A stretch of 64,000 nucleotides of DNA, from contig NZ_LNWY01000006.1 of assembly GCF_001681715.1 (NCBI RefSeq), forward strand, positions 1 to 64,000, written 5' to 3'. The DNA is from Tritonibacter mobilis. Its GTDB lineage: Bacteria; Pseudomonadota; Alphaproteobacteria; Rhodobacterales; Rhodobacteraceae. Shown piece after piece: positions 24,698 to 59,605 of the stretch (positions are counted from its first letter, which is position 1; each line of letters opens with the position of its first letter). The notes under the pieces were generated by a model. That model searched no databases. It was not told the DNA's origin and was given only the letters and a program-made list of their open reading frames with translations. The translations under genes and the position numbers were made by a program.

Positions 24698-24706
24698 CTT
24701 TTCGCC

Positions 24707-27712: not shown

Positions 27713-27985
27713 CTTTTCCTCCCTAAAGTCTGCAAGGTCGGATGTTTGCCCATCCAACTGGCCTAAAGGATTTCACCGAGCCAGCGATGATGTCAAACTA
27801 ATTATTTAGTAATCGTGTATCTATCAGAAAGTAAACAATTATGTATTGGCTACGATGCTGCTTACCTTGGGTCCAGAAACCGACCTTACGCCTAAATCTG
27901 GTGTTGACCTACCACGGCAGCGAGCGGTTTTACGCCGAACGTTTGGGGATACCGGAGGTCAGTGATTCCGGTTAAGAGATGCCTC
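27713..27985. promoter_or_regulatory. Promoter region of the ABC operon, divergent to the RNA methyltransferase gene
   Basis: The stretch 27790-27850 is strikingly AT-rich for this genome (for example AACTAATTATTTAGTAA) and is the obvious place for the operon promoter and a carbon-source regulator site. A 45-codon frame at 27841-27978 has no recognised similarity. Confidence 0.5.
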
Positions 27986-33442: not shown

Positions 33443-33590
33443 GCGCGGGTTTAAAGACGCACGCCATTGCGTGCGGATATGTGCCGATGGATCGCAGAGT
33501 TTTGATAGGTGTGACGTGAAAGACTACGTAGATCATAATGGCGAAAACATAGCGTCCATTCTATGCTTGGAAGAAGGTGGTGAGACACTG

Positions 33591-34718: not shown

Positions 34719-34752
34719 ACCGGCAGCGCAGGAGAGGAAAACGGAATTCACC

Positions 34753-37664: not shown

Positions 37665-38879
37665 GTGAAGATTGCATATGTGCTGAATACTTATCCGCAA
37701 CCCTCGCAGAGTTTCATCCGCCGCGAAATCCAAGCGTTGGAACGGCGCGGTGTTGATGTGCTGCGACTGCCGATGCGCCCCTCAGAACAGCGGCTTGTTG
37801 ATCCCGGTGATCAGACCGAGTCAGAGTGCTGTCACTATGTTTTGGCGGCAGGAGCGGCGCGTTTCGCGTTGGCGTTTTTGGTCTGCGTTGTCCGCGCGCC
37901 GCATCGCGGCTGGCGTACCTTCTGGCTGGCGATGCGGTTGGGTGGCGCAAATGCAGCGCGTCTGCGGCATCTGATCTACCTGATGGAAGCCGCCTATGTG
38001 GCGCGCGTCACCCGGCGCGAAAACTGCCAGCATATCCACGCGCATTTTGGCACCAATGCGGCTACGGTTGCCTTATTGGCAGAGGCTTTGGGCGCTCCGG
38101 GATATAGTTTTACGACCCACGGACCAGAAGAATTTGATGCCCCGCATACATTGTCGTTGGGGCAGAAGGTGGATCGCGCCCGATTTGCCGTTGCGATATC
38201 GAGTTTTGGCCGCAGTCAGCTGAGCCGCTGGGCGTCTTTTGGGTCCTGGGCACGGATCAAGGTTGTGCATTGCGGCATTGAGCCTGCGCGCTTTGCCGAG
38301 CCGCGAGCGGTGCCGCAAGGGCCTCTGCGTCTGGTGGCCATAGGGCGCTTTGTTGAGCAAAAGGGACTGATGGTTCTGATCCACGCGCTTGCAGATGCGG
38401 TCAGGGATGTACCGGATATTCATGTCTCTTTGGTTGGGGACGGCGAGATGCGTGCGGATCTTGAGGCGGCAATCGCAGCGCATGGATTGAGTGAGAATGT
38501 CACGCTGACCGGCTGGCTGTCAGAGGCGGGCGTTCGCGATGAACTGGCCAATGCGCATGCTCTGGTGATCCCTTCGTTTGCCGAAGGGTTGCCGATGGTT
38601 GTTATGGAGGCCATGGCTTCGGGCCGTCCGGTATTGGCGACATATGTCGCGGGCACGCCGGAGCTGGTGGTGCCAGAAGAGACAGGCTGGATGGTGCCTG
38701 CAGGTGATGTGCAGGCGCTGGCGGATCTCATGGTGCGGGTCGCCGCGGTGCCGCAGGCCCGGCTGACTCAGATGGGCCAACAGGCGCGTGAGAGAGTGCT
38801 GGAGCGCCACGACATAGATCAGGAGGCCGAAAAGCTCGCAGGCCATTTCGCCGAAGCAATCGCTGCAGGCGAGCGCTGA
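37665..38879 (+). CDS. Glycosyltransferase family 4
   Basis: A retaining GT-B glycosyltransferase of 404 aa, cytoplasmic face. The N-terminal domain begins IAYVLNTYPQPSQSFIRREI, a familiar opening of EPS GT4 enzymes. The C-terminal donor domain has IGRFVEQKGL, LVGDGEMR and the E-x7-E motif region FAEGLPMVVMEAMASGRPVLAT. Translation starts at GTG 37665 behind AGGAAGGG. It is alone on the plus strand, convergent with the GT2 at 38891 with only 11 bases between. The sugar is unknown. Confidence 0.94.
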   Translation: MKIAYVLNTYPQPSQSFIRREIQALERRGVDVLRLPMRPSEQRLVDPGDQTESECCHYVLAAGAARFALAFLVCVVRAPHRGWRTFWLAMRLGGANAARLRHLIYLMEAAYVARVTRRENCQHIHAHFGTNAATVALLAEALGAPGYSFTTHGPEEFDAPHTLSLGQKVDRARFAVAISSFGRSQLSRWASFGSWARIKVVHCGIEPARFAEPRAVPQGPLRLVAIGRFVEQKGLMVLIHALADAVRDVPDIHVSLVGDGEMRADLEAAIAAHGLSENVTLTGWLSEAGVRDELANAHALVIPSFAEGLPMVVMEAMASGRPVLATYVAGTPELVVPEETGWMVPAGDVQALADLMVRVAAVPQARLTQMGQQARERVLERHDIDQEAEKLAGHFAEAIAAGER

Positions 38880-38890: not shown

Positions 38891-39733
38891 TCAGCGTCCC
38901 CGTGCCCAGACGACGTTGGAAGAGAACAGTCGCGTCTTTACCGCCAGTGAAACAGCGACGTAGACTGCCGCGCCAATGGGGTTATTGAGCGCGATCCGGG
39001 CCATAGCACGCATGCCAGATGGGCGCGGGTCATCGTTTTGCAACAACTGTGGGAAAAGCGTTTTGATCTCAGCGACGCCGCGATCTTGCCGTCTGCGCAC
39101 CCGGACCAAGTTGCGAAACCCCTCCACCATGGGCCAGTGATAGCGACCGGGTAGGCGGATACGTTCCTCTGGTGAGAAATGCAGCCGCGCATAGGTGTCG
39201 TCAGAGATAATTGCAGGCCACTGACCCCAGCGCTCTCGGCCTGCGCGTGTCATGGCAAAGATCCCAAATCCCGGCGCACCTTTACGAACAAACGGCAGAC
39301 GGACCCATGCGCTCGCATAGGCGCGGGTGAACGCGTTTCGTGCGGGAGTGACGCAGGGGCTGCCGCTCGCATAAAGCGCGCGCTCGGGGCAGAGCGCGTG
39401 GGCGATTTGCGACAGCAATTCCGGCTCGACCTGCACATCCGCATCCAGATAAACCAGTATGTCACCGTTCGCAGCCTTATCGCCCTCGGTGAGCGCGGCG
39501 AGCTTGCCGCCTTCTGCGCGCTCCAGGACTCTCATCTCCCAACCATCTGGAACGGATACACTGCGGGCGCGCGCCACTGTGTCATCTGTGCAGCCATTGG
39601 CCAGCACCAGTACCTCGATCCCGTGCCCGCTGATGGCTGAGGCATAGAGCGCGGTCAGGCAGCCCGTGATATAGTCGGCTTCGTTATGGGCCGGGATGAG
39701 AACCGAGATCCTGCGCGGAGGGGAGCCTGTCAC
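38891..39733 (-). CDS. Glycosyltransferase family 2 (last gene of the PKS-NRPS operon)
   Basis: An inverting GT-A glycosyltransferase, 280 aa. The nucleotide-sugar site opens with VLIPAHNEADYI, and the metal motif is DADVQ (in VYLDADVQVEP, about residues 94-104). A C-terminal hydrophobic stretch (NPIGAAVYVAVSLAV) may anchor it to the membrane. Its start overlaps the stop of the SGNH-GH gene by four bases (ATGA), making it the seventh and last gene of the translationally coupled operon. It may glycosylate the PKS-NRPS product or the polysaccharide repeat unit. Confidence 0.92.
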   Translation of the reverse strand: MTGSPPRRISVLIPAHNEADYITGCLTALYASAISGHGIEVLVLANGCTDDTVARARSVSVPDGWEMRVLERAEGGKLAALTEGDKAANGDILVYLDADVQVEPELLSQIAHALCPERALYASGSPCVTPARNAFTRAYASAWVRLPFVRKGAPGFGIFAMTRAGRERWGQWPAIISDDTYARLHFSPEERIRLPGRYHWPMVEGFRNLVRVRRRQDRGVAEIKTLFPQLLQNDDPRPSGMRAMARIALNNPIGAAVYVAVSLAVKTRLFSSNVVWARGR

Positions 39734-42267
39734 CGAGCGGCCTCCAGCACATCCCAGCGCGGGTTGTCATCCGACAAGGTCCGGAGCGCCCCCCAGCTGC
39801 CCCAACGCCCGGGCACGGATACATCGGAATAGGCACCAAACAGCGTGCCACCAATGTCGGGCCAAGTGTTCAGGAGCTTGCGGTAAAGTTCCGCCATTTC
39901 TGGCGTGTAATTCAGGTAGGTAAAAAACGCGGTGAGGTCGTCATCATCGACCGATGCGCCATGGCCGACCACATGGGTTCCGCCCTCGTACATAATCAGT
40001 TCAAGCTCGTGTTTTTGCGCAACCTCCGCGTGGTACGGCAGCACACGGGTCAACAGGTCGTTCAGTGATCCTTCTTGAGATCCGGTGTTTAGCCCATCCT
40101 GCAACTCCACTGCAGCCTGCGCTGCGGCCACGTCAAAGCGGTGATCGCGGATGTAATCGCTTGCGGCGTCGCCACTCAGTCCCTGCGCGGAGGCCGCAGC
40201 GCGCGCGCGATCCTGACTGTCGGCAATCCATGCCCGAACCATTGGGGCCTGCTCCTGCATACCAAGGGACGCGCCAAAATAGCCGGTCACGGCATAAGCA
40301 TCAAAGCTGCGATAGGGCGCTTCACGACCCGCTTGTGCTGCGGTCCAAAGCGGTGCGTTCAGGATTTGCTCTTCGAGACCGAGCCACCCGGTCTGGGTCG
40401 AAATCACCCGCACCAGTCGATCCGATAGGTCAGTTTGGCCCGCACCTTCCGAGAACACTTCTGTCCAGATGCCTGCAACCTCGGCAGCGCGTCCGCCGTA
40501 ATACTGAAGCCAGAGACCGTCCTTGCCCCAAGTCTCTCGTGCCTGTTTGTCGGCCCATTGTGCCTGCTGAAACTGCCAATTCCACACTTCATTGGAATAT
40601 TCGACGTATGTTTTCAGGTCTTCGTCCAGACCGTCGCGCACCAATGTCGCAAGGTTGCGCACATAGGTGTCGTCGGCCATATGCGGCAGGGTGAACCACG
40701 AATCTGCGCCAACGCGATTGGCAAGTGTCACCAGCACTTCGGCGGGTATACCATTGGTGGTCCATGTGTAATCGCTGTAACGCGGGCGGTCCTCCCAACC
40801 GATCTGTTTGGAGTTGTTGGTGTCCATCCAATCCATAAAACGCAGGGCGGCAAAGCCCTCAATCCGGTCAAGCCAATCAGGGTTGAACAGAGCGCCCTGA
40901 TCATAGGCTTGCAGGTCACGTTCGCGCACCACGGTGATATTGCGCACGTAATCTCCGGTGCCTTCGCGGTCGGTGCGCTGAATACGGATGTCCACAGCAC
41001 CGGGTCCGGGTTCAAAGTCAAAGGACACTTGATTGCGGCCGTATCGAACATTTTTCGCCCGGCCCCCGGTCTCGACGATGCCTTGTCCTTCAAACCGCAG
41101 CACATAGCGCCCGGAGAGGCTAGTCGCGCTTTCAGGCAAATCGTTCAGGATCACAGTTCCAATCGAGCCAAGCTCGGGCGGCAGGGCCAAGGGCCAGCCA
41201 TCCGGATCAAGGTATCCTGCGTCACGCAATTCGTCTTCGGTAACACCGCCCCAACGGCCGGGCAAATGACCGATCCAGGCGCGCGCGGTTTTGAAATGGT
41301 CAAGAAACGGCGCCTGCGGGCTCCAATCGCGCACAGAAGCCAGATTCATGGCAATCGGTTGCCTGCGCACATCTGGCCTGCCGGTCGGCAGCGAAGGGAC
41401 AGTAATATTGGCGTTAAGGATGGCAGGTGCCGGGTCCGCGGGCAGGTCCACCGGGTCTGGTGGCAAGGTCATACGTGCCTGTGACCCGCTGGCAGCGCCC
41501 GCAGCGATTTCCTGCAAGCGCTGGGCGAGTTCGGCAGAAGGGGCCTTATAGGCGGTGCCCCACTCGGTTTTCAGAACACGCGGCAACCCTTCGGGGGAGT
41601 TGCCAGTGAGCACCGCATATTGCACCAAAGCGAGATAATAAAATCCGATGTCATTGGGGTGAATATCGTCTGAGAACACGTCTCTGATATCCTGCAAACC
41701 CGGCACGGTGCCGGTCTGGATGGCATCGGCTAAACAGCCCAGAGCCTGTCCTGTCGGCAGCAAACGAATGTCTCCGCCGGTATTGGCGCGCACTTTGTCC
41801 ACAACACCCTGCCAGCGGGGCAGATCGTTGTCGAGCCTCTCGCGCCATGCCACATCGCCACCATTATCAAACGGCACTTCAACGCCGGTGCCGCTCAGCA
41901 GGCTATGCCAGCCTTCTTGCAGGTAAAGCGTCACATTGGGATTTGATTGAGCGGCGAGCGTGTAGAAGTTCTCGACAGAGCCTTCGGTGTCACTCCAGCG
42001 CAGATGATTGGCGAGCGGAATGGCCTCGGTGACGATCACCGCATCAACGGGTCCTTTGGCGAGACGTTCGCGGGCGTTGATGCCTTGGGCCTTGTCGGCG
42101 TGTTCCCAGTTGTACCGCAGGGGCGCGCCGTTGATCACCTGATACTCGACCACAGGCCGGTTGTCCTGCCCGGCTGCGAGCAACTGCTGTAACATGCGCG
42201 GATTTTCGGGACCGATCAGCGAATGACCGATCATGACAAGCGCCGTGAGGAGCGTTTCCGGTGTCAT
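39730..42267 (-). CDS. SGNH-like domain fused to a glycoside-hydrolase-like (clan A type) domain
   Basis: An 845-aa two-domain protein. Residues 1-255 form an SGNH-hydrolase-like domain: GHSL (Ser16) and the block V motif DDIHP (Asp200, His203). After a proline-rich linker (about 265-300), residues 300-845 look like a beta-sandwich plus TIM-barrel glycoside hydrolase: VEYSNEVWN places a candidate acid at Glu560 and IMYEGGT a candidate nucleophile at Glu761. I cannot assign a GH family. No signal peptide is evident, since GHSL begins only 13 residues from the start, unlike the paralogous gene just upstream. It overlaps both neighbours by four bases. Likely partners are an acyl or sugar group of the polysaccharide or the PKS product. 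Confidence 0.8.
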   Translation of the reverse strand: MTPETLLTALVMIGHSLIGPENPRMLQQLLAAGQDNRPVVEYQVINGAPLRYNWEHADKAQGINARERLAKGPVDAVIVTEAIPLANHLRWSDTEGSVENFYTLAAQSNPNVTLYLQEGWHSLLSGTGVEVPFDNGGDVAWRERLDNDLPRWQGVVDKVRANTGGDIRLLPTGQALGCLADAIQTGTVPGLQDIRDVFSDDIHPNDIGFYYLALVQYAVLTGNSPEGLPRVLKTEWGTAYKAPSAELAQRLQEIAAGAASGSQARMTLPPDPVDLPADPAPAILNANITVPSLPTGRPDVRRQPIAMNLASVRDWSPQAPFLDHFKTARAWIGHLPGRWGGVTEDELRDAGYLDPDGWPLALPPELGSIGTVILNDLPESATSLSGRYVLRFEGQGIVETGGRAKNVRYGRNQVSFDFEPGPGAVDIRIQRTDREGTGDYVRNITVVRERDLQAYDQGALFNPDWLDRIEGFAALRFMDWMDTNNSKQIGWEDRPRYSDYTWTTNGIPAEVLVTLANRVGADSWFTLPHMADDTYVRNLATLVRDGLDEDLKTYVEYSNEVWNWQFQQAQWADKQARETWGKDGLWLQYYGGRAAEVAGIWTEVFSEGAGQTDLSDRLVRVISTQTGWLGLEEQILNAPLWTAAQAGREAPYRSFDAYAVTGYFGASLGMQEQAPMVRAWIADSQDRARAAASAQGLSGDAASDYIRDHRFDVAAAQAAVELQDGLNTGSQEGSLNDLLTRVLPYHAEVAQKHELELIMYEGGTHVVGHGASVDDDDLTAFFTYLNYTPEMAELYRKLLNTWPDIGGTLFGAYSDVSVPGRWGSWGALRTLSDDNPRWDVLEAAR

Positions 42268-43229
42268 GTGACCTCCACTGCAGCGCTGGCAAGACCAGTG
42301 CGGGGCAGGGCGGTTACCACCTGCCAGACAAGGGATTGCAGGATGCCCGCGCCCTCTGCGTCAAGCGCGGTATAGGCGGTGCCATCTGAGAGTGTAACCT
42401 GATGTGGCAGACCCTCGGGACTGCGGTGATAGAGCACCGCGTAATGGGTCAACGCAACGATATAAGCACCAAGCGGGCTCAGGTGGATCTGATCCCTTGT
42501 CCCATCTGGCAGAAGATCAAACAACGCATTCCGGTCTGTAAGGCCCGGAATGCCTCCGGCCTCTGCCGCGCGGGTGATCGCCGCGAGCACCTGCCCGCCG
42601 GGGATCAGATACAGCGGTTGATCGTTTGCGGTGCGGTCATCCTTGGATGTGAGTTGCCCGAGCCAAAGCGCGTCCAGATCCTTGTCTATCCGAGCAAGCC
42701 AACCATCCGGATCATCGAGACGGTGCCATGTCTCATATAGATAGAGCCGCGCATTCGGGTTGCCTTTGCGGGCCAGATCAGCCCAAAGGTTTAGGTAATG
42801 CGCCGCGTTAAAATATTTAATCGCATCGCGCAACTCCACCATTTCGGTAAAGATAACAGCGTCATAGCCCAGCGTCGCCAAGGCGTCTTTGGGCGCGCGC
42901 CAGATTGGTGCCGCGTTGACTTTCTCGAAGTCGAGGATCGGTTCACCCTCTTCCCAATGCGCGCGCAGAGACGTGCCTGAGCCGCGTTGCACGTTGTAGC
43001 GATGACCCTCGCCCGCAAATTGCGCCAGCAGATACGGAATTTCTGCACCGACCAGTGAATGGCCGAGATGATATACTCTCAAGGGACCGCGTGGAGGGGG
43101 GAGGGTTGCGACCTCTCTGGGCGTGCTGTTGCGCTGCCCAAGGGCCCAAACTCCCAGAGCACCGACCGGCAATGCGGCGCAAGCCATGAGGATTGCGCGA
43201 CGGGGCAGGCGGCGGAGACGGTTCATCAT
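42264..43229 (-). CDS. Exported SGNH-hydrolase-like protein, paralogue of the fused SGNH domain
   Basis: A 321-aa protein with an N-terminal basic stretch and hydrophobic helix (RLPRRAILMACAALPVGALGVWAL), a Tat-like or uncleaved membrane anchor. The SGNH-like blocks are GHSLVG (about 56-61) and DQIHLSPLGAYI near residue 262-273. It shares with the next gene GHSL, YDAVIFTE versus VDAVIVTE, LYLYETWH versus LYLQEGWH, IPGGQVL versus LPTGQAL and HRSPEGLP versus GNSPEGLP, so the pair arose by duplication. SGNH relatives in EPS clusters are often O-acetyltransferases or esterases. It overlaps the PPTase and the next gene by four bases each. Confidence 0.82.
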   Translation of the reverse strand: MMNRLRRLPRRAILMACAALPVGALGVWALGQRNSTPREVATLPPPRGPLRVYHLGHSLVGAEIPYLLAQFAGEGHRYNVQRGSGTSLRAHWEEGEPILDFEKVNAAPIWRAPKDALATLGYDAVIFTEMVELRDAIKYFNAAHYLNLWADLARKGNPNARLYLYETWHRLDDPDGWLARIDKDLDALWLGQLTSKDDRTANDQPLYLIPGGQVLAAITRAAEAGGIPGLTDRNALFDLLPDGTRDQIHLSPLGAYIVALTHYAVLYHRSPEGLPHQVTLSDGTAYTALDAEGAGILQSLVWQVVTALPRTGLASAAVEVT

Positions 43230-43936
43230 GGGTGCAGCTCGCTTCTGGGGATCTCGACCGCTGTGATGATTACCTCAGAGCCGATGGCAAATCGACCCTT
43301 GAGGCTGTCGCCGCCTGAAAATGGAGGCTGATCAGAGGTGAAACATGCAGTGAAGCGGCCTGCGCTCATTTCGAAGGTGAGTTCCATACCGCTGAAACCA
43401 AAAAAGCGGCCAGAAATGGCGTATTGCGCCTTATAAGCGGCCTCTTTGGCTGAAAACAGCAGCTTGCCTGCTCGGCCGGGGTCTGGCTGCGCGGCCATCC
43501 AACCCTGTTCAGTGGCGTTTGCGATGCTGTCCCATAAGTCGCCAGAAAGAGGTGTGTCTTTCTCAATGTCAATACCGATACCAGCAAATGTCTCAGTCAT
43601 TGCGACGGCTGCCAACGCACAGCTGTCGCAATGAGAGATACTGCCCGTCAATCCTGCTGGCCAAAGAGGCGCGCGTTTCGGGCCAACAAGGATAGGCGCA
43701 GGCCGTAGATTCAACGCGCGCATCGCCTGATGGGCTGCGGCGCGACCGGCGGCAAACTCGCGGATGCGTTTCTCAACCGCATTGGGTGACAGGCAGGCGC
43801 TTTCCTCTGGCAAAGGTGCCGGGGGCGTTCTCAGAGGATCGCAGGATGCAATGGCGATTGCTTCCGACAGCAATGGGCGCAGCAAACGTCGCCGTGCTCC
43901 AGCAAGTTCTCTTGAAACGCTTGGGGCCTCTATCAT
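43226..43936 (-). CDS. 4'-phosphopantetheinyl transferase, EntD/Sfp type
   Basis: It converts apo carrier proteins to holo form using coenzyme A; 236 aa, cytosolic. The EntD-type motifs are in order: GRAAAHQAM (68-76), GLTGSISHC (94-102), GIGIDIEKD with the Mg-binding acidic pair, and FSAKEAAYKA. All catalytic residues I can identify are present. Its position between the NRPS and SGNH genes, overlapping both by four bases, strongly suggests it activates the ACP (Ser1805) of the PKS and the PCP (Ser1442) of the NRPS of this operon. Confidence 0.94.
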   Translation of the reverse strand: MIEAPSVSRELAGARRRLLRPLLSEAIAIASCDPLRTPPAPLPEESACLSPNAVEKRIREFAAGRAAAHQAMRALNLRPAPILVGPKRAPLWPAGLTGSISHCDSCALAAVAMTETFAGIGIDIEKDTPLSGDLWDSIANATEQGWMAAQPDPGRAGKLLFSAKEAAYKAQYAISGRFFGFSGMELTFEMSAGRFTACFTSDQPPFSGGDSLKGRFAIGSEVIITAVEIPRSELHP

Positions 43937-46900: not shown

Positions 46901-48498
46901 GCGGCGTGAATGGTCTGATCTGCCGGATAGTCCGCGTCGGTTGCATTCCATTGCTCCAGCATCTGCTGGCGTTCAGTGTCGGGCAGCAAGGGCAGGGCTG
47001 AAAGTGCAGTGTCTGCCTGCGATGGCAGTGCCGCCAGCAGGCATTCGAGGCGTGCCGCCAGCACGGACAGCGCCTGTTGGGACAGATGCCGGGACTGTAG
47101 CTGCACGCGGTCCTCGGACTGGATCAGGGCCAGTTGAGCGTGGTCCGGCACGCTGTCGGTACCTATACACAAGACAACCGCCGGAGGGGCCTGCACAGAA
47201 ATCTCTGGCGCGCGCAGGATCAGATCCGTTGCAAAACCACCCTGATCTCCCGCTCGGGTCAGAACCGCCTCAGCACGGGTCACAAGGGTCGAGAATGCTT
47301 CATGCGTTTGGGCATTGAGGGGCACCCAATCGGCCATCAGCCCGGACTTTGCCGCAGACTGTAGCGTGGGCAGGCTGAGCGCGATTGACCCCTCGGTCTC
47401 GCCCAGACTGCGCAACAACCATGCAAGCGCAGCCGCAGCCAATGTTGCGGGCGGGCACTGTGCAGGCAGTGTGATGTCGGCGGTTTGCGCGTCGCCTTTT
47501 TCAGCAGCGTGCAACGGGACCGGCAGGGGCAGCATGTTTGACAACGCGCGCCGCCAGTAGGTCTCGGGCGTCTGGCTGGTTTGCGCAGCATTTTCCAGCG
47601 CGTTGATCTCACCCTCGGCAAGAGCGGGGAGTAAATCGCCAGCGCGCAGAAGATCACGCAGGCTCAGGGGCGTGCCAGACAAGGAAGTCAGCGTCCCGAG
47701 CCGAATGGCCCCATCGGCGCAGGCAATGGTGACGTCGTCACCCGTGACGGCGAGGATCTCTCCCGCTGGGCCTGTTCCCTCGGCAGGATGCGCCTGACCC
47801 ACCGCAACGAACTGATCGGCCAAGCGGATCTTTGCAGTGGTGAGCGGGTTCCAATAGCCGCCCATATCCAGACCACGGACAACGCGCAGCAACTCCGCAA
47901 CCGGGCGGTCAAAGCGTAAGACCCCGGCGGCCTCCGGGCGATCCGCGCGGGCGTGATAGCGGCGCTGGCTCAGATCCTGTGGCTGGCGGTTGAGGGTGCC
48001 GCTCTCTAATTGGTCGAGCACTTCGGCAAAGCTATCAAGCGCTGCGCCATAACATTTCGAGTTGAGGCTAAAGGCGGTTTCATCCTCAGAGACCGCGAAA
48101 CGGCGCTGGGCGAGGATATCGCCTTCGTCCACACCGCCCTCAATCATGTGCCATGTGATGCCGTGTTCCGCGGCACCTTCGAGAATGGCCCAGTTGGGCG
48201 TGTTCAGACCTGCGCGTTCGGGCAGCGGGCCATCGTGGAAATTCACCGCCCCGCGGCGGGCCTTGGCAATCACTGCTTCGGGCAATACCCGCAGGTTGGC
48301 AATCGACAAGAGCCAATCAAAGTCGCCCTCGATGCCACGCGGAGCAGCAAGAACCTGCAGCCCTTTGGATGCGGCCCAGGAGGTGATCTCTGCATTTTCG
48401 CTGACCACAGCCCGGATCTCGTGACCACGTGTCAGCAATGCCTCGCTACACCCGATCAGCAGGGATTCATTGCCAATGACGACGGTTGAAAATGTCAT
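43933..48498 (-). CDS. NRPS-like protein: formyltransferase, half condensation, adenylation interrupted by luciferase-like monooxygenase, PCP
   Basis: A 1521-aa assembly-line enzyme. Order by residues: formyltransferase 1-290 (NFHDGPLPERAG at 86-97, GVDEGDIL at 122-129); C-terminal lobe of a condensation domain 312-495 without any HHxxxDG; adenylation domain 510-1395 with A3 YTSGSTGLPKG (674-684), A4 FDIS (719-722), A5 NMYGPTETT (1191-1199), A7 YRTGDL and A10 NKKIDRK; PCP with Ser1442 in GGHSLL. Between A4 and A5 (about 757-1090) lies an FMN-dependent luciferase-like monooxygenase of the MupA/Atu3671 type. The pocket residues read D-I-L-Q-L-G-M-I-W-K, a glycine-type code. Likely an initiation module (compare the F-A-T start of linear gramicidin) that oxidises its aminoacyl group, as in MtaG/MelG of myxobacteria. 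It overlaps the GT2 and PPTase genes. Confidence 0.92.
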   Translation of the reverse strand: MTFSTVVIGNESLLIGCSEALLTRGHEIRAVVSENAEITSWAASKGLQVLAAPRGIEGDFDWLLSIANLRVLPEAVIAKARRGAVNFHDGPLPERAGLNTPNWAILEGAAEHGITWHMIEGGVDEGDILAQRRFAVSEDETAFSLNSKCYGAALDSFAEVLDQLESGTLNRQPQDLSQRRYHARADRPEAAGVLRFDRPVAELLRVVRGLDMGGYWNPLTTAKIRLADQFVAVGQAHPAEGTGPAGEILAVTGDDVTIACADGAIRLGTLTSLSGTPLSLRDLLRAGDLLPALAEGEINALENAAQTSQTPETYWRRALSNMLPLPVPLHAAEKGDAQTADITLPAQCPPATLAAAALAWLLRSLGETEGSIALSLPTLQSAAKSGLMADWVPLNAQTHEAFSTLVTRAEAVLTRAGDQGGFATDLILRAPEISVQAPPAVVLCIGTDSVPDHAQLALIQSEDRVQLQSRHLSQQALSVLAARLECLLAALPSQADTALSALPLLPDTERQQMLEQWNATDADYPADQTIHAAFEAQVARTPNATALVFEDQHLSYAALNQRANALARHLQEQGVKPGSHVGVYLRRSMDLVVATLGILKAGAAYVPLDPAYPGDRIAHYITDSQASVIVTHAALAPDLPDSSAHSLHLDTLDPTSSAEPVSEGTGEDLAYLIYTSGSTGLPKGVMVRHRNVANFFTAMDARIPHQVGDTWLAVTSLSFDISVLELFWTLARGFKLVLSSDESRLQLSNGPIALSDRKMDFNLYYWGNDDGAGEKKYELLLEGAKFADAHGFNAVWTPERHFHAFGGPYPNPSVTGAAVAAVTRNIGVRAGSCVAPLHHPARIAEEWAVIDNLTGGRAGIGFASGWQPDDFILRPENTPPANKPALFEALEIVRKLWRGEEVGFPRKDGGLHSVVTQPRPVSDELAVWVTTAGNPETWREAGRVGANVLTHLLGQSIDEVGDKIALYHAALREAGHDPADFTVTLMLHTYLADTREAAREVAREPMKDYLRSAAGLIKQYAWAFPAFKKPKGVDNPFEMDLGSLSTEELEAILDFAFERYFEDSGLFGTVEDAVTRVEDLKRIGVDEVACLIDYGIEPHVVLEGLKPLAEVLRRANRVQELAADDFSLAAQIVRHGVTHMQCTPSMARMIATDADAGPVLARLQHLLVGGEALPGDLVNALRNQTRATLHNMYGPTETTIWSTVETLDGTPQGIAPIGTPVANTTVYVLDGTDQPVPIGAAGELCIGGAGVTAGYWQRADLTAERFPADPFRTGQQMYRTGDLVRWRADGTLEFLGRTDHQVKIRGQRIELGEIEAALSAIDGVTAAVVIPRKIGTDERLVGYVAASAPFSEAQAKAHLARHLSEVMVPAHIVTLEAFPLTPNKKIDRKALPDPQPTRREASAVAAVSQSLTQQKIAEVWQKLLGVSIVGQSDNFFALGGHSLLAVQAHRDIRSLLGIERLSITDIFRFPTLDGLATHVEQLHSGGEAPTETASSTANTAGRADTMSKRRAMRANRKARSG

Positions 48499-49517
48499 GA
48501 CTTGTGTTCCTCCAGAACGGGATCGGACGCAAATGGCCGCGCCGGGTTTGGCGCGGGCAAGGGGCGCAGCAATCGTTTGAAATGATGACGCAGCAGGTCG
48601 CGATGAAAATGGGGCGCATCGGCGCGGGGCTTACCAGAGGTCAGCCGGCGCAGACCATAGACTGCACCGCCCAACAGCCGTGCAAGGGTTGCGCCAATCG
48701 CATAGATCGGACCGTGGGTTTGCGTGAAATAATGCAACCGCGAGTCCAGCCAGAACTCAGGTGTGCGCGCCCATGTCTTCATGCCGGTTGAGGCCGACCC
48801 CACATGGGCAACGGTGCTGTGTGGGATGTAATGCGTCCGCCAGCCCGCACGTGCGGCGCGGTGGCAGAGTTCGGTTTCCTCGAAGTATAGAAAAAACGTC
48901 TCGTCAAAGCCGCCGATGGCCTCGATGACCTCGCGGCGGATCATCATGCTGGCCCCGGCGGTCCAATCCACTTGTTGTGCGTCATACGGGATCTCCAGTG
49001 GCACGATAGCGTGTTTCAACAGGCGGGAGATCACACCGGTGCGCGCCGCACCTTCAAATTCGCTCGCGATGGTCGGAAAGCGAAACAGCGTGCAATGGGG
49101 CGTGCCGTCTTCGCCATGCACATACGACCCCGCGAGCCCCGCACCCGGAGCACTCAGTAGAAAATCCCGCAATCTGCGAATGCAGTCCTGTTCGGGAAAG
49201 GCGTCAGAGTTCAGGAGATAATAGAAATCGGGGCGCGATCCATCCGAAAGCCGCGCGCAAAATCCGATGTTCATGCCCGCACCAAAGCCGCCATTGACAG
49301 GTGAGGCCTCAATCCGCAGGTGACCACTGTCGAGCCAGCCGCGCGCTGTCGCCCCGGCCCGCAGGGCTTCAAAAGATCCATCACCCGATCCATTGTCGAT
49401 AATCAGCACTTCGCCGGGCAGATCTTCCATTTCCTCCAAGGCCGCTTCTGCGGAGCGCAGCGTCATGGCAGGCGTGCGAAAGTTCAGGATGATCGTGAGG
49501 ATAGAGTTGGCGGCCAT
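48495..49517 (-). CDS. Glycosyltransferase family 2, rhamnosyltransferase-like
   Basis: A GT-A transferase of 340 aa. IILNFRTPAMTL opens the domain, LLIIDNGSGDGS-type nucleotide loop (LIIDNGSGDGS) follows, and LLNSDAFPE is the DxD-equivalent (NSD). GGFDETFFLYFEETELCHRA is the acceptor/catalytic motif of rhamnosyltransferase-like (WbbL/RfbN) members. It sits between PKS (three-base gap) and NRPS (four-base overlap), an intimate position that suggests it decorates the PKS-NRPS product, for example as a glycolipid, rather than acting only in repeat-unit assembly. Confidence 0.92.
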   Translation of the reverse strand: MAANSILTIILNFRTPAMTLRSAEAALEEMEDLPGEVLIIDNGSGDGSFEALRAGATARGWLDSGHLRIEASPVNGGFGAGMNIGFCARLSDGSRPDFYYLLNSDAFPEQDCIRRLRDFLLSAPGAGLAGSYVHGEDGTPHCTLFRFPTIASEFEGAARTGVISRLLKHAIVPLEIPYDAQQVDWTAGASMMIRREVIEAIGGFDETFFLYFEETELCHRAARAGWRTHYIPHSTVAHVGSASTGMKTWARTPEFWLDSRLHYFTQTHGPIYAIGATLARLLGGAVYGLRRLTSGKPRADAPHFHRDLLRHHFKRLLRPLPAPNPARPFASDPVLEEHKS

Positions 49518-49520
49518 GGG

Positions 49521-52500
49521 TTACTCTGCCGCCTTTGCGACACCGCGCGGGCAGATGATTTGGCGTGTATTTTTCCCTAGGAGATCGCGAATTTCGTTCC
49601 CCAGTACGCTGACGTTGGGCACCAGAACCATACCGTCGTGGTCGCCGGGAACCTCGCGTACGACCAGTGACGGCGCAAATCGGGTCCAGTCGTTATCCGC
49701 GTAGACATATTCACGATCTCGGCTCACACATTGCCCACCAGAGACTTTCCAATGCCGGTCCAGCACAGGTCGATAGAGTGTCACCGGACCCGTCCAGGGC
49801 TGAACCTCATACCCGACCACCGCGCGCAGGAAGGCCAGTTCGATCTTGCGATTGTTGAAACCGGTGCTCTCGCCGGTTTCCGCCGGGCGGTCCTGACGCT
49901 TGCGAATTTCCCAGGCAATGCGGTTGCGCAGCCATTCACCGAGGTAGCCCGGCCCTTTGCTGCGGATCTCTGCGAGCTTGATCAGCGCCTTGTCAATGGG
50001 TTTGAGGTCTGGGCGCACCGGCAGCGGCGTATCCAGCAGCACCAGCGCATCCACCGCCTCGCCAGAGGCCTTGAGCTGCTGGGCAATTTCATATGCGGTG
50101 ATGCCGCCGCCAGAAAACCCACCGATCAGATAGGGCCCTTCGGGCTGCACCTGTCGCATCTCGGCGATATAGTCGCGGGCGGCGTCCTCGATCCGCTCGT
50201 GCGGTTCATCCGTGCCGATCAGGCCACGCGCCTGTAGCCCATAGACCGGACGATCCTCGCCAAGGATCCGTGCCAGATGCCGCAGGTTCAACACGTTGCC
50301 AAACATGCCCGCCACGATGAACATCGGTGCGGCTTGGCTGTCCTTGCCGGGGGCAAGGCGCACGAGGTGGCTGAAGCTCTGCGGTGCGGCCTCTTGGTCG
50401 TCCGCGGCATTGCCCTGGGCCTCCAGCGGCCCGGTCTCAGCCTCGACCCGGGCCGCCAGCGCGGCGACGGTCGGGGCATCAAATAACACGGACATTGGCA
50501 ATTCGACCCCGAAGCTGCGTTTGATCTGCGCAAAGAGCCGCACGGCGATCAGAGAATGACCGCCCAGATCAAAGAAACTGTCCTCTACACCGATCTGCGA
50601 TAAGCCCAGCAGTGTGGCGAAATGACCGGCGAGGGCCTCTTCGGTTGCCGTGCGGGGCGCAACATAGTCGGTATCCAGATCGGGGCGGTCAAAGCTCTGC
50701 CCTTCACCTTCGGGAGCTGTTTGCCCGCTGGTGTCCGCCTGCTGGCGCAAGGCGTCCAAGTCCAGCGAGGAGACAACAACCTGTGGCAGACTCGCAGCGA
50801 GCGCGCGTTCCAGCGCGATGCCGCCCTCGCTGGTGTGGATGCCATTCTCCAGATTGGCGAGCAGGCGCCGCTCGTCCGGCGACAGGGGCTGCGTCTCCGC
50901 ATCAGGGGTCAGGCCAAGCGCGGCGGCTGTGGTGTCGGTGCGGGTGGGCAGAAGGTTGAAGCCGCCGCTCAGTTGCTGCATGCGGAAATGCGAGATTTCC
51001 ACCAAAACGGTCCCTGCCGGGTCGGACAGGGTGATGTCAAACAGCACCGCGCCCTGCTCGGCCTGCCCGTCCGCAAGCCGCACATGGCTGTAGATGTCCT
51101 TGGTCAATGGGGCGAGCACCCTGATCGTGCCGTAGGAGACCGGCACCCAGAGCGTGCTGGACTCGTACCCCGGCGCAAGTTCGATGGCCCAGCCGGTGGC
51201 AAGATCCATAAGCCCCGGATGCAACAACGCGCCGTCACTTGCTGCAACATCAGGCAAGGACAGTTGGGCGAGCCCTTCGTCCCGACCAAGCGCCACTGAT
51301 TGCAGCACATGCCAGCGCGGACCAAACCGCAGGTTGGCTTCTTGCGGGGACCTGATGCGTGCGCCCGCGACATCTGCCTCTTGCGGCGTGCAGCGCGCGG
51401 AGATTGCATTCAGATCCAGGGGGGCGGCGGTACTGTGGTCCAGCGTGACCACCTCAGCCTGTGCCGTGCGTGCATATCCCTCTGTCGTTTCCGCGTGGAT
51501 TTGCACCTCATAGCCTGCTGCACCGGGCCTTAGATGCATCACCGCCTCGCGCGGCATATGATCCTCGACCACAAAGGGTTGCAGGAAATAGAGGTCCCGG
51601 ATTTCGTAGGGCGCGGTGCTGCCGAGCGCATCCAGCCCTTCGGCAATGAACTCGATATTGCCGGTGCCGGGGATCAGGGCGGTGCCATCATGGGTGCGGT
51701 GATCATCCAGCAGCCAGTCGCTGCGCGCGTCAAAACGACTGCGGAACACCGGCGCGCCGGAGCGATCAAAGCCTTGTGTCTGCCAAAGCGCGGCCTCTGA
51801 CGGCAGTGGTTCCGAGGGGGCAGCGCTGCCGCGCCGAGCGGCCATAGCGTCCGCTGCCATGCCGGCATCCGCCCAGATCCCCCAGTCGAGGGCCATCACG
51901 CGGGTTTGCCCGCCCTGACGGGATTTCGCCCAAGCGTTGAGGTATTCGTTGGCGGCCACGTAATCCACCTGCCCGGCAGGGCGCGTCACGGTGGAGGAGG
52001 AGGAAAACAGCACCATCAGGTCGAGGGTGCCATCCGGGAAGACCTGATCCAGCACACGCAGGCCGTTCACTTTGGGCGCGAGTACCTCGGCGATTTGGCG
52101 ATCTGTCTTGGCCAGAAGGGGGGCGTCGGCAATGTAGCCTGCGCCGTGGAACAGCCCGGTGATGGGGCCAAATGCGGCGCGTGCGGCCTCTGCCGCGTTG
52201 CGCATGTCCTGGAGGTTGCAGACATCGGCGCTGAGCGTGAGCACTTCGCCGCGTCCGGTCGCCTCCAGTTTTTGAACGGCGCGAATGCGGGTTGCGATCC
52301 GGTCAGCCGGGCTGTGGCGGCGCAGGTAGCGGTCCCATTCGGCACGCGGTGGCAGGGCGTCACGGGACAGGAGCGTGATGCGCGCTTCATACGTCTGCAT
52401 CAGGTGCTCCGCGATCGTCAGCCCGATGCCGCCGTAGCCGCCAGTGACGAGATAGTGCCCCCCGGTTTGCAGCGGCAGGTCGCTTGCCGTTGGTGCCGCG

Positions 52501-55500
52501 AGGGGCACCGGGCGATAGTCAAGCTCCAGACGTTTTTCGCCACGCCAAGCAGCGGCGTGGTTGCCGGGTGCGGCCAGCAGCTCTTCGAGCAGGCGCGAGG
52601 TGATTGGGGCGGGTTTTGTGCCGGATATGAGGGCAGAAAGGCCCGCAGGGGTTTGCGGCAGCTCAATGTCACAGGTTGCGACGGTGACACCGGGGATCTC
52701 GCGCGGGATCACACCCGCGGGGCCGGAGATCATTGCTTTTTCCGGATAGGGCAGGGGCTCGCCACGTACCTGCGCGGCACCGGTGGTCAGCACGCTCAGA
52801 TGCACCGGATGCGGCAGCTCTGCCTGCGCCAGCGCTTGTCCTAAGGCGGTAAGCGACATCAGCCCCATTTCGATATTGCGATCAAAGAAGGAGGAGCCGG
52901 GGCGGTAATCCTCGGTGTCGGTGACCAGCCAGAAATGCGCGATCCGCTGCGGCAGAAGATCCGCCTCGGCCAGATCCGCCAGAAGGGCCTCGGTACCGAA
53001 CCGGCCTTCTTCCGGGGCCAGTTGATAGACATCGGGCGCAAGCTGCGCATAGGTATCCCCAGCCCGCACGCGGGCCACCCGATGACCGGCGGCAAGAAGA
53101 GTCTCGGCGCAGGCGGCGGCCTGTCCGGCGGTGTCTTCAAAGATTAGCCAGGTGTGCGGCTCCAGCGTGAGTTCGTTTTCTACATCCAGCGCGCAATCGG
53201 CCAGACGGGGTCGCCAAACCGGGCGGTAGCCCCAATCGGCAATGTCCGCGTGCCGTGCGGGCAAGGCAATCTCGGGCGCTTGCACTGATTTTCCGGGTTC
53301 GATGAAGTAGCGGCTACGCTGGAACGCGTAGGTGGGCAGGCTCAGGCGGTTGCGGCGGGCATCGCCCCAGATCTGAGGCCAGTCGGCCTCGACCCCGCAG
53401 GCCCAGAGACGGCCGATGATGCCAAAGAAATAGGCATCATCCGCGATATCCTGCTCCGGGTGACGCAGAGAGCTGAGCACCTGACCGGACGCGACCTGAG
53501 GCGACATTTGAGCCAAGGCGCTGAGGGCCTTGCCGGGACCGACCTCCAGGTAGACGCGGCCTTTGGTGGTTGCGAGCGTTTCGATGCAATCGGCAAAACG
53601 CACGGTATTGCGCAGTTGTTCAACCCAGTAGTCGGCGCTGGTCGCCTGTTCCGGCGTCAGCGGCTGGCCGGTGCGGTTGGACATCACCGGCAGGTTTGGC
53701 GGTTGCAGATCGAGACGGCGCAGGAAATCGCCATAGGCCGCGAGAATCGGCTCCAGCATGCGGCTATGGGCGGCGATGTCGATGGGAATACGCTGGAACT
53801 CCACATCGCGGGCGCGCAGCGTCTCGGCCAGCGCATCCAAGCGATCATCCGGACCGGATACAGCGGTTAGTTCCGGCGCGTTGACGCTAGCGATGTCGAG
53901 ATCCGCACCCACAAGCGTCTCGACCTCAGAGAGCGGCAGCGAGATCGACAACATGCCGCCCGGCTCAACCGTGTCAAACAGCCGCCCCCGCAGTTGCACC
54001 AGGTCGATGCAATCCTCAAAACTCATGACACCGGCCAGACAGGCGGCAGTGTTTTCCCCCATGGAATGGCCCACCATGGCCGCAGGCCGGACGCCCCAGC
54101 TGATCCAGAGCTGCGCCAGCGCATATTCCACGATCATGATGAGCGGCAATTGTACCGAGGGTTTCAGCAGCGCCGCATCAGCGCCTGCCTCCGCGCCGGG
54201 GTCCGGCAACCACAGGGCGCGGATGTCGAAATCGAGGCTCTTTTCCAGATGGTCCAGCCCCTGATCCATCCAGTCGGCAAACACCGGCTCCGTCTCATAG
54301 AGGTCGCGCGCCATGCCCGCAAATTGTGCCCCCCCGCCGGGGAACATAAACACCACCTCGGGATGCGCACCGAGATGGTCGTGGGTGAAGACCTCACGCG
54401 GGTTCGCGGCTTCCAGCATGTCGGCGGCGTCCGTCGCGGTTTCGGCCACCACCACGCGACGTTTGGCAAAGCCGCGGCGGCCTTCCTTGAGGGTGTAGGC
54501 CACATCCGCCAGCTCCACATCGGGGTGGGCGCGCAGGTAGGTCGTGAGGTTCTGCGTGTTTGCCTCCAGTGCGGCCTTGGTCTGGCCGGAAATACAAAGC
54601 ACCTGAAACGGGAAATCGCTTTCCTCGGAAGGCGCACGCACCGGGGCCTCTTCGAGGATCGCATGGGCATTGGTACCGCCGACGCCAAGGGCATTCACAG
54701 CAGCGCGCCGGGGGCCCTTGTGCGAAATCCACGGGCACATCGTATCGTTCACTCGGAAGGGCGAGGTTTCAAAGTCGATGGTCGGATTGGGTTTTTCATA
54801 CCCCAGCGAAGGCGGCAGCGATTTGTTCTCCAGCGCGAGGGCGGTTTTCACAAACCCGGCCACGCCGGCTGCCGTGTCCAGATGGCCGATGTTGGTTTTG
54901 ACCGATCCGATCCGGCAATAGCCCTTTGCATCGGTGCCATCGCGGTAGGCATCGGTGAGGGCGGCAACCTCAATGGGATCGCCGATATAGGTGCCGGTGC
55001 CGTGGCATTCGACGTAATCGATGGTTTCAGGGTTCACCCGTGCAGCCGTCAGCGCCTTGCGCACCGCCGCGGATTGCCCATCCACCGAAGGGGCCAGATA
55101 TCCCGCCTTGGCCGCGCCGTCGTTGTTGATCGCTGAACCTTTGATGACGGCCCAGATGTGGTCGCCATCGGCCACCGCATCGCTGAGACGCCGGAGCGCC
55201 ACGGCCCCCGCGCCAGAACCGAACACGGTGCCCTGCGCGCGGTGGTCAAAGGCGTGGCAGTGGCCGTCGGGCGACAGGATTTCGTTTTCCTTGTAGAGGT
55301 AGCCGCGCCCCTGCGGCAGTTCGATTGTTACACCACCGGCCAGCGCCATATCGCATTCGCCCTTGCGCAATGCCTCGGCGGCGTAGTGGATCGCCACGAG
55401 CGAGGTGGAGCAGGCGGTCTGCACGTTGACCGATGGTCCCTTGAGATCAAAGACATGGCTGACGCGCGTGGTCAGAAAATCCTTGTCGTTGCCGGTATGG

Positions 55501-55967
55501 CGCAAGAGGAACATGCCCACGTCATCGACCAGATCCGGGTTCGAGCAGATGTTGAAGTAAAAATAGCTGCCCATGCCGCAGCCCGCATAGACACCGACCT
55601 GGCCTTTCAGGCTTTCGGGTGTGTGACCGGCATCCTCCATCGCGCCCCATGCGACCTCGAGGAACTTGCGATGTTGCGGGTCGAGGATCGCGGCCTCTTT
55701 GGGCGAAAATCCAAAGAACTCCGCGTCAAACTCATCAAATCCTTGTAGCCGGGCGGAAGAGGGCACGTAGTTGGGATCGCGCAAGGTCTCGGCGCGTTCG
55801 CCAGCAGCAAGCAGGCTGTCTTCGTCAACGACCTCAATCGACTCGATGCCATCACGCAGATTGGTCCAATACTCGTGAATTGAAGCCGCACCGGGTAAAG
55901 TGACAGACATGCCGACCACTGCGATATCGTCGGGGCTGTGGTGATCGAGTTTTGTCATCTTATCCAT
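49521..55967 (-). CDS. Type I polyketide synthase: KS-AT-KR-DH-ACP-TE
   Basis: A 2148-aa single-module PKS. KS (about 12-443): Cys186 in TACSTS, His322 in HGTGT, His362 in NIGH. AT (540-820): GHSMGE with Ser635, and AAHS at 732-735, a motif that does not decide the extender unit. A structural ketoreductase half spans about 930-1150; the KR (1165-1375) has GGYGGIG and Tyr1336/Asn1340. A double-hotdog DH (1410-1665) follows, with H1423, GTALIP and D1588. ACP (1780-1845) has Ser1805. TE (1875-2140) has GFSGG with Ser1952 and His2110. The KR precedes the DH, unlike the common DH-ER-KR order. It is the first gene of the seven-gene operon; the NRPS two genes on could prime it, and the TE would release the product. 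Confidence 0.95.
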   Translation of the reverse strand: MDKMTKLDHHSPDDIAVVGMSVTLPGAASIHEYWTNLRDGIESIEVVDEDSLLAAGERAETLRDPNYVPSSARLQGFDEFDAEFFGFSPKEAAILDPQHRKFLEVAWGAMEDAGHTPESLKGQVGVYAGCGMGSYFYFNICSNPDLVDDVGMFLLRHTGNDKDFLTTRVSHVFDLKGPSVNVQTACSTSLVAIHYAAEALRKGECDMALAGGVTIELPQGRGYLYKENEILSPDGHCHAFDHRAQGTVFGSGAGAVALRRLSDAVADGDHIWAVIKGSAINNDGAAKAGYLAPSVDGQSAAVRKALTAARVNPETIDYVECHGTGTYIGDPIEVAALTDAYRDGTDAKGYCRIGSVKTNIGHLDTAAGVAGFVKTALALENKSLPPSLGYEKPNPTIDFETSPFRVNDTMCPWISHKGPRRAAVNALGVGGTNAHAILEEAPVRAPSEESDFPFQVLCISGQTKAALEANTQNLTTYLRAHPDVELADVAYTLKEGRRGFAKRRVVVAETATDAADMLEAANPREVFTHDHLGAHPEVVFMFPGGGAQFAGMARDLYETEPVFADWMDQGLDHLEKSLDFDIRALWLPDPGAEAGADAALLKPSVQLPLIMIVEYALAQLWISWGVRPAAMVGHSMGENTAACLAGVMSFEDCIDLVQLRGRLFDTVEPGGMLSISLPLSEVETLVGADLDIASVNAPELTAVSGPDDRLDALAETLRARDVEFQRIPIDIAAHSRMLEPILAAYGDFLRRLDLQPPNLPVMSNRTGQPLTPEQATSADYWVEQLRNTVRFADCIETLATTKGRVYLEVGPGKALSALAQMSPQVASGQVLSSLRHPEQDIADDAYFFGIIGRLWACGVEADWPQIWGDARRNRLSLPTYAFQRSRYFIEPGKSVQAPEIALPARHADIADWGYRPVWRPRLADCALDVENELTLEPHTWLIFEDTAGQAAACAETLLAAGHRVARVRAGDTYAQLAPDVYQLAPEEGRFGTEALLADLAEADLLPQRIAHFWLVTDTEDYRPGSSFFDRNIEMGLMSLTALGQALAQAELPHPVHLSVLTTGAAQVRGEPLPYPEKAMISGPAGVIPREIPGVTVATCDIELPQTPAGLSALISGTKPAPITSRLLEELLAAPGNHAAAWRGEKRLELDYRPVPLAAPTASDLPLQTGGHYLVTGGYGGIGLTIAEHLMQTYEARITLLSRDALPPRAEWDRYLRRHSPADRIATRIRAVQKLEATGRGEVLTLSADVCNLQDMRNAAEAARAAFGPITGLFHGAGYIADAPLLAKTDRQIAEVLAPKVNGLRVLDQVFPDGTLDLMVLFSSSSTVTRPAGQVDYVAANEYLNAWAKSRQGGQTRVMALDWGIWADAGMAADAMAARRGSAAPSEPLPSEAALWQTQGFDRSGAPVFRSRFDARSDWLLDDHRTHDGTALIPGTGNIEFIAEGLDALGSTAPYEIRDLYFLQPFVVEDHMPREAVMHLRPGAAGYEVQIHAETTEGYARTAQAEVVTLDHSTAAPLDLNAISARCTPQEADVAGARIRSPQEANLRFGPRWHVLQSVALGRDEGLAQLSLPDVAASDGALLHPGLMDLATGWAIELAPGYESSTLWVPVSYGTIRVLAPLTKDIYSHVRLADGQAEQGAVLFDITLSDPAGTVLVEISHFRMQQLSGGFNLLPTRTDTTAAALGLTPDAETQPLSPDERRLLANLENGIHTSEGGIALERALAASLPQVVVSSLDLDALRQQADTSGQTAPEGEGQSFDRPDLDTDYVAPRTATEEALAGHFATLLGLSQIGVEDSFFDLGGHSLIAVRLFAQIKRSFGVELPMSVLFDAPTVAALAARVEAETGPLEAQGNAADDQEAAPQSFSHLVRLAPGKDSQAAPMFIVAGMFGNVLNLRHLARILGEDRPVYGLQARGLIGTDEPHERIEDAARDYIAEMRQVQPEGPYLIGGFSGGGITAYEIAQQLKASGEAVDALVLLDTPLPVRPDLKPIDKALIKLAEIRSKGPGYLGEWLRNRIAWEIRKRQDRPAETGESTGFNNRKIELAFLRAVVGYEVQPWTGPVTLYRPVLDRHWKVSGGQCVSRDREYVYADNDWTRFAPSLVVREVPGDHDGMVLVPNVSVLGNEIRDLLGKNTRQIICPRGVAKAAE

Positions 55968-57640: not shown

Positions 57641-57742
57641 TTCGACCCAAATTCACTACTACGGTATACGCAAGAACTGGCACAAGCCCTTAGGGCAGGG
57701 GTAATAAAATCAGGCACTTTAGTGATCTGGATCGAGAGCAAG

Positions 57743-59503: not shown

Positions 59504-59605
59504 GCGCCAGACAATGCGTTGAAAATACCGCCCAATCCTATGCAAGCACCAGCAAAGCGCAAGATGCGCAATGGGTTGGCGGTGCAGGATTGGGGTCAGC
59601 CCCCT

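Follow-up and report, generated by a model that had tools for sequence, protein, structure and literature searches.

A roseobacter PKS/NRPS core as a very likely part of a Wzx/Wzy-type polysaccharide pathway

Introduction

What does a hybrid assembly line of polyketide synthase (PKS) and non-ribosomal peptide synthetase (NRPS) make when it is surrounded by genes for a polysaccharide? This question is raised by a stretch of 64,000 nucleotides from Tritonibacter mobilis (positions 1 to 64,000 of contig NZ_LNWY01000006.1, assembly GCF_001681715.1; C56 in our numbering), hereafter called the window, which is part of a 4.7-Mb genome. It contains a seven-gene operon that encodes a PKS, a GT2-family glycosyltransferase (GT2a), an NRPS, a 4'-phosphopantetheinyl transferase (PPTase), an SGNH protein, a fused SGNH and glycoside-hydrolase-like protein (SGNH-GH) and a second GT2 glycosyltransferase (GT2b). 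A four-gene cluster of PKS, NRPS, glycosyltransferase (GT) and PPTase is described from 28 of 57 roseobacter genomes by Collins et al., who leave the product uncharacterised, attribute the cluster to Martens et al. and name Leisingera sp. ANG1 (PMC4337385). The PKS-NRPS pairs of roseobacters that the first-pass annotation mentioned are therefore already in print, and the pathway was named a widespread roseobacter orphan in 2015. Here, we compare the locus across genomes and conclude, from sequence comparison, that the PKS/NRPS core is very likely part of a polysaccharide pathway of the Wzx/Wzy type.

The core stays with polysaccharide genes through rearrangements

The NRPS was found in 105 of 295 sampled genomes of the family (E<=1e-150). 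At E<=1e-120 it occurred in 7 of 385 genomes of a class sample, 5 of them in the family, and in 11 of 299 genomes of a phylum sample (7 in the family). About 40 kb around the gene were read in 59 genomes. Besides the window, 54 of the 105 family genomes with the NRPS (window genome included) were read, and the choice was not random: the closest relatives came first, then genomes with a missing or distant SGNH gene, taken deliberately, then others, while short contigs were mostly omitted. For G178 and G185, a longer neighbourhood than the initial stretch was read. In a FastTree phylogeny of 68 NRPS sequences, 63 fall into one (starred) clade.

We scored five polysaccharide genes: Wzx, Wzy, Wzz, CpsD and the initiating transferase. 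At least two of the five are present in 38 of the first 40 neighbourhoods and in 52 of 55 clade neighbourhoods, through several gene orders. De novo clustering of 63 clade neighbourhoods, which exclude the outside-clade loci G574, G632, G144, G933 and L281, recovered GT2a in 58, Wzz in 54, Wzx and CpsD in 50 each, the GT2 glycosyltransferase GT2c in 48, Wzy in 39 and the initiating transferase in 35; these counts are lower bounds, because the neighbourhood windows are cut. As a control for chance, we took 41 genomes with 111 initiating-transferase genes in all; in 23 of them such a gene is at most 25 kb from the NRPS, against an expected 1.4. Plasmid-borne copies in Ruegeria conchae, Ruegeria sp. 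SCSIO 43209, Paracoccus marcusii, P. liaowanqingii, Aminobacter sp. MSH1 and Shinella zoogloeoides have a flippase and glycosyltransferases in the stretch covered. The locus of Rhizobium sp. BG6 lacks annotation, yet gives a Wzx match.

The first-pass annotation had tied the PKS-NRPS pair to the polysaccharide locus, and had named homologous operons commonly lying away from polysaccharide genes as the outcome that would speak against the tie. Within the clade, such operons are the exception, and a synteny that is kept through rearrangements strongly supports the link. Its second expectation, a conserved block of seven genes, had to be given up. SGNH (E<1e-50) occurs in 53 of the 295 family genomes against 105 for the NRPS, and is missing from 53 of these 105. 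The conserved unit is the core PKS-GT-NRPS-PPTase, which is also the published roseobacter core, is present in the window, and in Leisingera sp. ANG1 takes the form PKS-GT2a-NRPS-PPTase (L097).

The plasmid copies show further genes of note. On two Paracoccus plasmids (L277 653-4531, L280 1-3605), the polysaccharide locus also houses an additional NRPS next to a WecB/TagA/CpsF glycosyltransferase. Near another cluster lie genes for a UbiA prenyltransferase, GtrA, an FAD oxidoreductase, an SDR and a HAD phosphatase (L282 28317-32231 and 40857-41489), a set which we take to resemble the polyprenyl-phosphoryl-arabinose route. VPLPA-CTERM proteins or the exosortase XrtD are found near three plasmid copies (L276 5152-6804, L281 35121-40014, L282 26989-27675).

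GT2a and the SGNH proteins as likely partners of the line

GT2a is present in 97 of the 105 genomes with the NRPS and in 2 of the 190 without it, with the cut placed at a visible gap (E=2e-95 to 8e-55), and for 90 of 100 GT2a copies the distance to the NRPS is at most 150 bases. From this distribution, GT2a appears to be a dedicated partner of the NRPS line. Its NSD and FFLYFEE-type residues are invariant or nearly so in 28 sequences. The predicted model has a GT-A fold that a fold search places near GlfT2, GalNAc-T2 and WrtF, a match that names neither sugar nor acceptor.

Almost every genome with SGNH also holds the NRPS (52 of 53), and the sole other, G147, is 73% complete. The two genes are less than 5 kb apart in 38 genomes and 12-16 kb apart in G276 and G126. 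In G034, G121 and G175 they are separated by 160-580 kb, and in ten genomes they lie on different contigs, although some of these assemblies are fragmented, so that a contig break may conceal proximity. SGNH thus keeps company with the NRPS where linkage is lost, which suggests that it acts on the product of the line. An N-terminal hydrophobic segment indicates that SGNH is probably exported.

The first-pass calls of SGNH and SGNH-GH found no backing in Pfam, where neither the window SGNH nor the 845-aa SGNH-GH protein matched a model at E<=0.001; SGNH is backed instead by its motifs and SGNH-GH by its predicted fold. In SGNH, the GHS motif, the Asp and the IH of DxIH are invariant across 45 aligned sequences, of which 22 match DUF4886 at E<=1. 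A Foldseek search with the AlphaFold model of the 845-aa protein, whose mean pLDDT is 91, returned a DUF4886 protein at E 2e-7 as well as GDSL hydrolases, and more weakly GH5, GH1 and other barrel glycosidases (near E 1e-3, low TM-scores). Among 49 aligned relatives, 6 match Lipase_GDSL_2 and 7 are too short to hold most of the first domain. Glu556, Glu560 and Glu761 are invariant in the alignment and could include a retaining pair. No signal peptide was seen in the called frame, and PDB sequence searches with the protein and both profiles gave no credible match.

Relatives of these proteins also occur elsewhere. Seven polysaccharide loci (L117, L122, L128, L133, L136, L138, L167) carry SGNH, SGNH-GH and GT genes and no NRPS in the stretch covered. 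A further SGNH relative sits in a contig labelled as a Planctomycetota metagenome-assembled genome (L143), by mis-binning or transfer.

Domain anatomy and predicted chemistry

The NRPS comprises a formyltransferase (~1-290), an adenylation domain (534-745 and 1121-1392) that is interrupted by a luciferase-like monooxygenase (761-1111), and a carrier domain (1414-1479). We read residues ~300-520, by eye, as the C-terminal part of a condensation domain, a remnant; the Pfam scan found no condensation model in the protein. The formyltransferase keeps Asn-His-Asp (N-H...D) in an alignment of 60 NRPS rows. The protein therefore has the make-up of a formylating starter module: a formyltransferase with these residues, adenylation and PCP domains, and no full condensation domain. 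Its nearest solved formyltransferase-adenylation module is that of linear gramicidin synthetase, LgrA. The monooxygenase scores 471.4 bits against TIGR04020 (curated cut-off 244.45), and the solved structure that covers this part is a PuwE chain.

The adenylation pocket, assigned by eye against the GrsA positions, reads D-I-L-Q-L-G-M-I-W-K. Of the ten positions, nine are conserved in at least 95% of 60 rows and one, 299, varies among relatives. The glycine code is nearly the same, and the substrate is probably glycine.

The domain order of the PKS is KS-AT-KR-DH-ACP-TE, with catalytic residues conserved in at least 95% of 59 rows. KR stands ahead of DH, where the usual module order is DH before KR. 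The AT carries the motif AAHS instead of the usual HAFH or YASH and shares it with its two nearest solved ATs, 5yda and ZmaA. No ER domain was found among the Pfam matches of the PKS. None of the formyltransferase, the inserted monooxygenase, the lack of a Pfam condensation domain and the KR-DH order had been recorded in the first-pass annotation.

The NRPS has a formyltransferase and lacks a condensation domain that can be recognised as complete, and is therefore most likely the chain starter. Since a formylated amino end should not extend backwards and a TE ends the PKS, the order of action is most likely NRPS then PKS, opposite to the order of the genes, and the whole is most likely a two-module line with one residue, one ketide and release. 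In the same monooxygenase family, MupA acts on a thioester bound to an ACP and hydroxylates it at the alpha position (PMC10952193, in the part covered here), and the aminotransferase and monooxygenase of PuwE are assigned to a 3-amino-2-hydroxy acyl product (PMC4219810, likewise). By analogy with these precedents, an alpha-hydroxylated N-formylglycyl starter would be the simplest prediction.

A proposed polymer-borne acyl group and its alternatives

How could such a line serve a polysaccharide? We consider it fairly probable that it supplies a short formamido acyl group that is carried by the Wzx/Wzy-dependent polymer, where we infer both the product and its attachment. The NRPS would load the probable glycine and formylate it to an N-formylglycyl-carrier, which the monooxygenase would probably hydroxylate at the alpha position. 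The PKS would extend this starter once and reduce it to a small formamido hydroxy- or enoyl acid, and the TE would release the acid or hand it to a sugar. GT2a may build the acceptor or the acylated sugar of the repeat unit, which Wzx, Wzy and Wzz would export and polymerise, while SGNH and SGNH-GH may edit acyl groups or the length of the polymer chain. More tentatively, the loci may define a class of alphaproteobacterial exopolysaccharide that bears a formamido, hydroxylated short acyl chain made by an assembly line, with a dedicated GT and an SGNH/GH editing pair. As in the first-pass annotation, glycosylation itself is inferred, and so is any decision for an anchor or for a side group.

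Several observations weigh against this interpretation. Two neighbourhoods, G178 and G802, have one of the five polysaccharide genes nearby. G185 has none and is a real and clean exception to the polysaccharide context; here, PKS-NRPS-PPTase without GT2a lies amid glutamine synthetase, TerB, phosphoribosyltransferase and radical-SAM genes (L218-L219, L250). From a sister clade, described below, it is clear that an NRPS of this type need not sit in a polysaccharide locus. In a second sample of 80 named loci, which were found by their SGNH gene and reach ~10 kb to each side, 49 have an NRPS above 300 bits (with PKS in 45 and GT2a in 46) and 31 have no full NRPS match in the span, some of them being short contigs. 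GT2a is absent from all 31, and 7 have at least three polysaccharide genes. Only 27 of the 49 have at least two of the five genes, in a ~10-kb span that is largely PKS and NRPS. The co-occurrence counts for GT2a, SGNH and NRPS ignore species phylogeny, and in five divergent loci (Rhizobium, Shinella, Aminobacter, G802, G907) GT2a does not lie between PKS and NRPS. Finally, the AAHS motif of the AT assigns no extender, and no acyltransferase that could attach the group was identified.

The sister group of the clade has four members (G574, G632, G144 and Aliiroseovarius M344), in which the NRPS precedes the PKS and tblastn finds none of the five genes. Likewise, the four outside-clade neighbourhoods among the 59 (G574, G632, G144, G933) have none, and on the Aliiroseovarius plasmid glycosyltransferases and TamA/TamB are 10-20 kb away. 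The sister-clade loci (L231-L232 for G574, L233-L234 for G632, L235-L236 for G144, and L281 20007-33746) carry the same formyltransferase-adenylation-monooxygenase NRPS. Their products are probably free natural products, and would be useful for learning the starter chemistry.

These pairs, like G185, raise the possibility that the clade members also make a free, perhaps glycosylated small molecule (a signal, siderophore or antibiotic) that merely shares the locus with polysaccharide genes. The kinship with the LgrA module points the same way, as linear gramicidin is a free peptide. We nevertheless regard a free molecule as unlikely: the synteny survives rearrangements and plasmid settings, in the window, the operon directly adjoins polysaccharide genes, and the line is co-inherited with a probably exported SGNH even where the two are unlinked. 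A generic siderophore cluster was not favoured, given the single-residue NRPS, the polysaccharide neighbours and the lack of a receptor among the proteins scanned; no TonB-receptor match was found among the window proteins scanned, with 1-19.7 kb of the window not annotated. A cluster of that kind would be expected to pair a multi-residue synthetase with adjacent receptor or transport genes, and the window does hold an ABC transporter with an SBP_bac_1 protein at 21942-27757.

Alternatively, the line could make an anchor or primer for the reducing end, one per chain, instead of a substituent of the repeat unit. Such a role is supposed for PKS-linked capsules of the RkpA/WcbR type, and GT2a could add the first sugar to a released product. 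PKS genes are indeed described inside capsule clusters of Burkholderia, Nitrosomonas and Rhizobium (PMC3908369, in the part covered here). However, the locus encodes an initiating sugar-phosphate transferase and a flippase of its own, a pair typical of undecaprenyl-linked assembly, and the predicted product, with one module and no ER domain found, would be short and polar and not a lipid. An anchor therefore seems quite improbable to us.

Finally, a hitch-hiking relic, in which one ancestral insertion into a polysaccharide island was inherited as a block and moved on plasmids, would suit a clade that looks single-origin and has several plasmid copies, but is very improbable, as the immediate neighbours differ by lineage while polysaccharide genes stay near (15 flank states need 16 changes on the tree, minimum 14, with states taken from tblastn and a 2.5-kb rule and including some detection artefacts, e.g. 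two Paracoccus loci with an extra NRPS) and as, in some genomes, SGNH is co-inherited although unlinked.

A polymer-borne acyl group thus remains our preferred explanation. It suggests that a pathway present in many marine and soil alphaproteobacteria makes a group of the sugar coat and not a free antibiotic or iron carrier. The search for the product would then shift from solvent extracts to the polymer, and assembly-line biosynthesis would be linked to the surface glycans that govern attachment and biofilms. The polysaccharide placement is directly testable in genetically tractable roseobacters.

The operon and its surroundings in the window

The open reading frames and the bases reproduce exactly the seven genes on one strand, their coordinates and the junctions of +3, -4, -4, -4, -4 and -4 bases given in the first-pass annotation (Table 1); the last gene starts with GTG. 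In relatives, the start codon nearest the overlap was chosen, so that -4 counts are biased upwards. Pfam and NCBIfam bear out the identities of PKS, both GT2s, NRPS and PPTase. Beyond one end of the operon lie genes for Wzy-like, WecG, GT2 and TamB proteins and an Omp85 piece, and beyond the other those for GT4, Wzx, Wzz-like, CpsD-like and initiating transferase proteins. Of the flanks named at first pass, the initiating transferase, Wzz-like, Wzx and WecG calls held, while those of Wzy and CpsD rest on matches below cut-off. A flippase, polymerase, co-polymerase and initiating transferase are thus found together, as in Wzx/Wzy-dependent loci, with a weak match for the polymerase.

Table 1. 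Features of the operon and its polysaccharide flanks, in window positions
Feature	Position	Strand	Basis or remark
Seven-gene operon	55967->38891	-	ORF list
PKS	49521..55967	-	type I, 2148 aa, KS-AT-KR-DH-ACP-TE; Pfam/NCBIfam, conserved catalytic motifs
GT2a, GT2 glycosyltransferase between PKS and NRPS	48495..49517	-	Pfam, motifs, predicted fold, NRPS co-occurrence
NRPS, 1521 aa	43933..48498	-	Pfam/NCBIfam, structure matches, conserved motifs
4'-Phosphopantetheinyl transferase (PPTase)	43226..43936	-	Pfam/NCBIfam
Putative SGNH/DUF4886-like hydrolase or acyltransferase	42264..43229	-	GHS and D-x-IH invariant, DUF4886 matches, NRPS co-inheritance
SGNH-GH, fused SGNH and barrel glycoside-hydrolase-like, 845 aa	39730..42267	-	alignment, predicted fold
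GT2b, GT2 glycosyltransferase	38891..39733	-	Pfam
GT4 glycosyltransferase, EpsE-like	37665..38879	+	domain matches
Wzx flippase	36103..37455	-	domain matches
Wzz-like chain-length protein	34690..36027	+	domain matches
CpsD/XrtA-type tyrosine autokinase-like protein	33411..34718	+	below NCBIfam cut-offs
Initiating sugar-phosphate transferase, WbaP-like	32702..33442	+	domain matches
Wzy-like polymerase	56159..57640	-	weak Wzy_C match, E=0.0015, under cut-off
WecG/TagA/CpsF glycosyltransferase	57257..58504	+	true start probably downstream of 57257
GT2c, GT2 glycosyltransferase	58520..59545	-	domain matches

The Wzz and CpsD proteins of the window score best to XrtA-system models, below cut-off. 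The two Poly_export (Wza-type) matches of the genome (G000) both lie on other contigs, C7 and C34 (L284, L285), and C34 also carries a second initiating transferase. Further away in the window are an ABC transporter with an SBP_bac_1 protein (21942-27757) and, in this alphaproteobacterium, a metal-binding protein of the TIGR03084/MDMPI_N mycothiol-enzyme type (29232-30032). An Rfam scan of 28-64 kb of the window gave 0 matches, and a scan for sigma-70 promoters and terminators gave results close to those of shuffled sequence.

Comparison with known systems

The roseobacter cluster of Collins et al. has the same four gene types as the window core. In the parts of that paper covered here, it is framed as a secondary-metabolite cluster, and polysaccharide genes, a formyltransferase and a monooxygenase are unmentioned (PMC4337385). 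For P. inhibens, one PKS and three NRPS genes are listed (PMC4062626, in the part covered here). In the open-licence PMC literature, judged mostly from listings, we found no printed polysaccharide link for the roseobacter cluster, and a search of the same scope for formylglycine in polysaccharides led nowhere.

Capsule PKSs of the RkpA/WcbR type are typically fully reducing and have an ER, which Pfam does not find in the window PKS. They share with it the setting of a type I PKS inside a polysaccharide locus, and an NRPS partner is unmentioned for their clusters in the part covered here (PMC3908369). By description, not by sequence, the window differs in its hybrid line, its Wzx/Wzy genes, its TE and the lack of a detected ER. 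LgrA has formyltransferase, adenylation and PCP domains in the same order and matches in sequence, whereas the window NRPS adds what we read as a condensation remnant, the monooxygenase insert and a PKS partner. By its score, the window monooxygenase belongs to the TIGR04020 MupA/Atu3671 family, with those of MupA, PuwE and MtaG; in the window, by contrast, it is inserted into the adenylation domain of a formylating starter module. The zwittermicin acyltransferase ZmaA is among the closest solved ATs and has the AAHS motif in common with the window AT, but no enzymes for special ACP-linked extender units were found among the window genes scanned.

The four core genes and the presence of PKSs in capsule loci were therefore known before. 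As far as our searches reach, four features are new: a polysaccharide context that recurs consistently, a starter module that formylates and probably hydroxylates, a GT dedicated to the line, and the co-inheritance with a partly unlinked SGNH.

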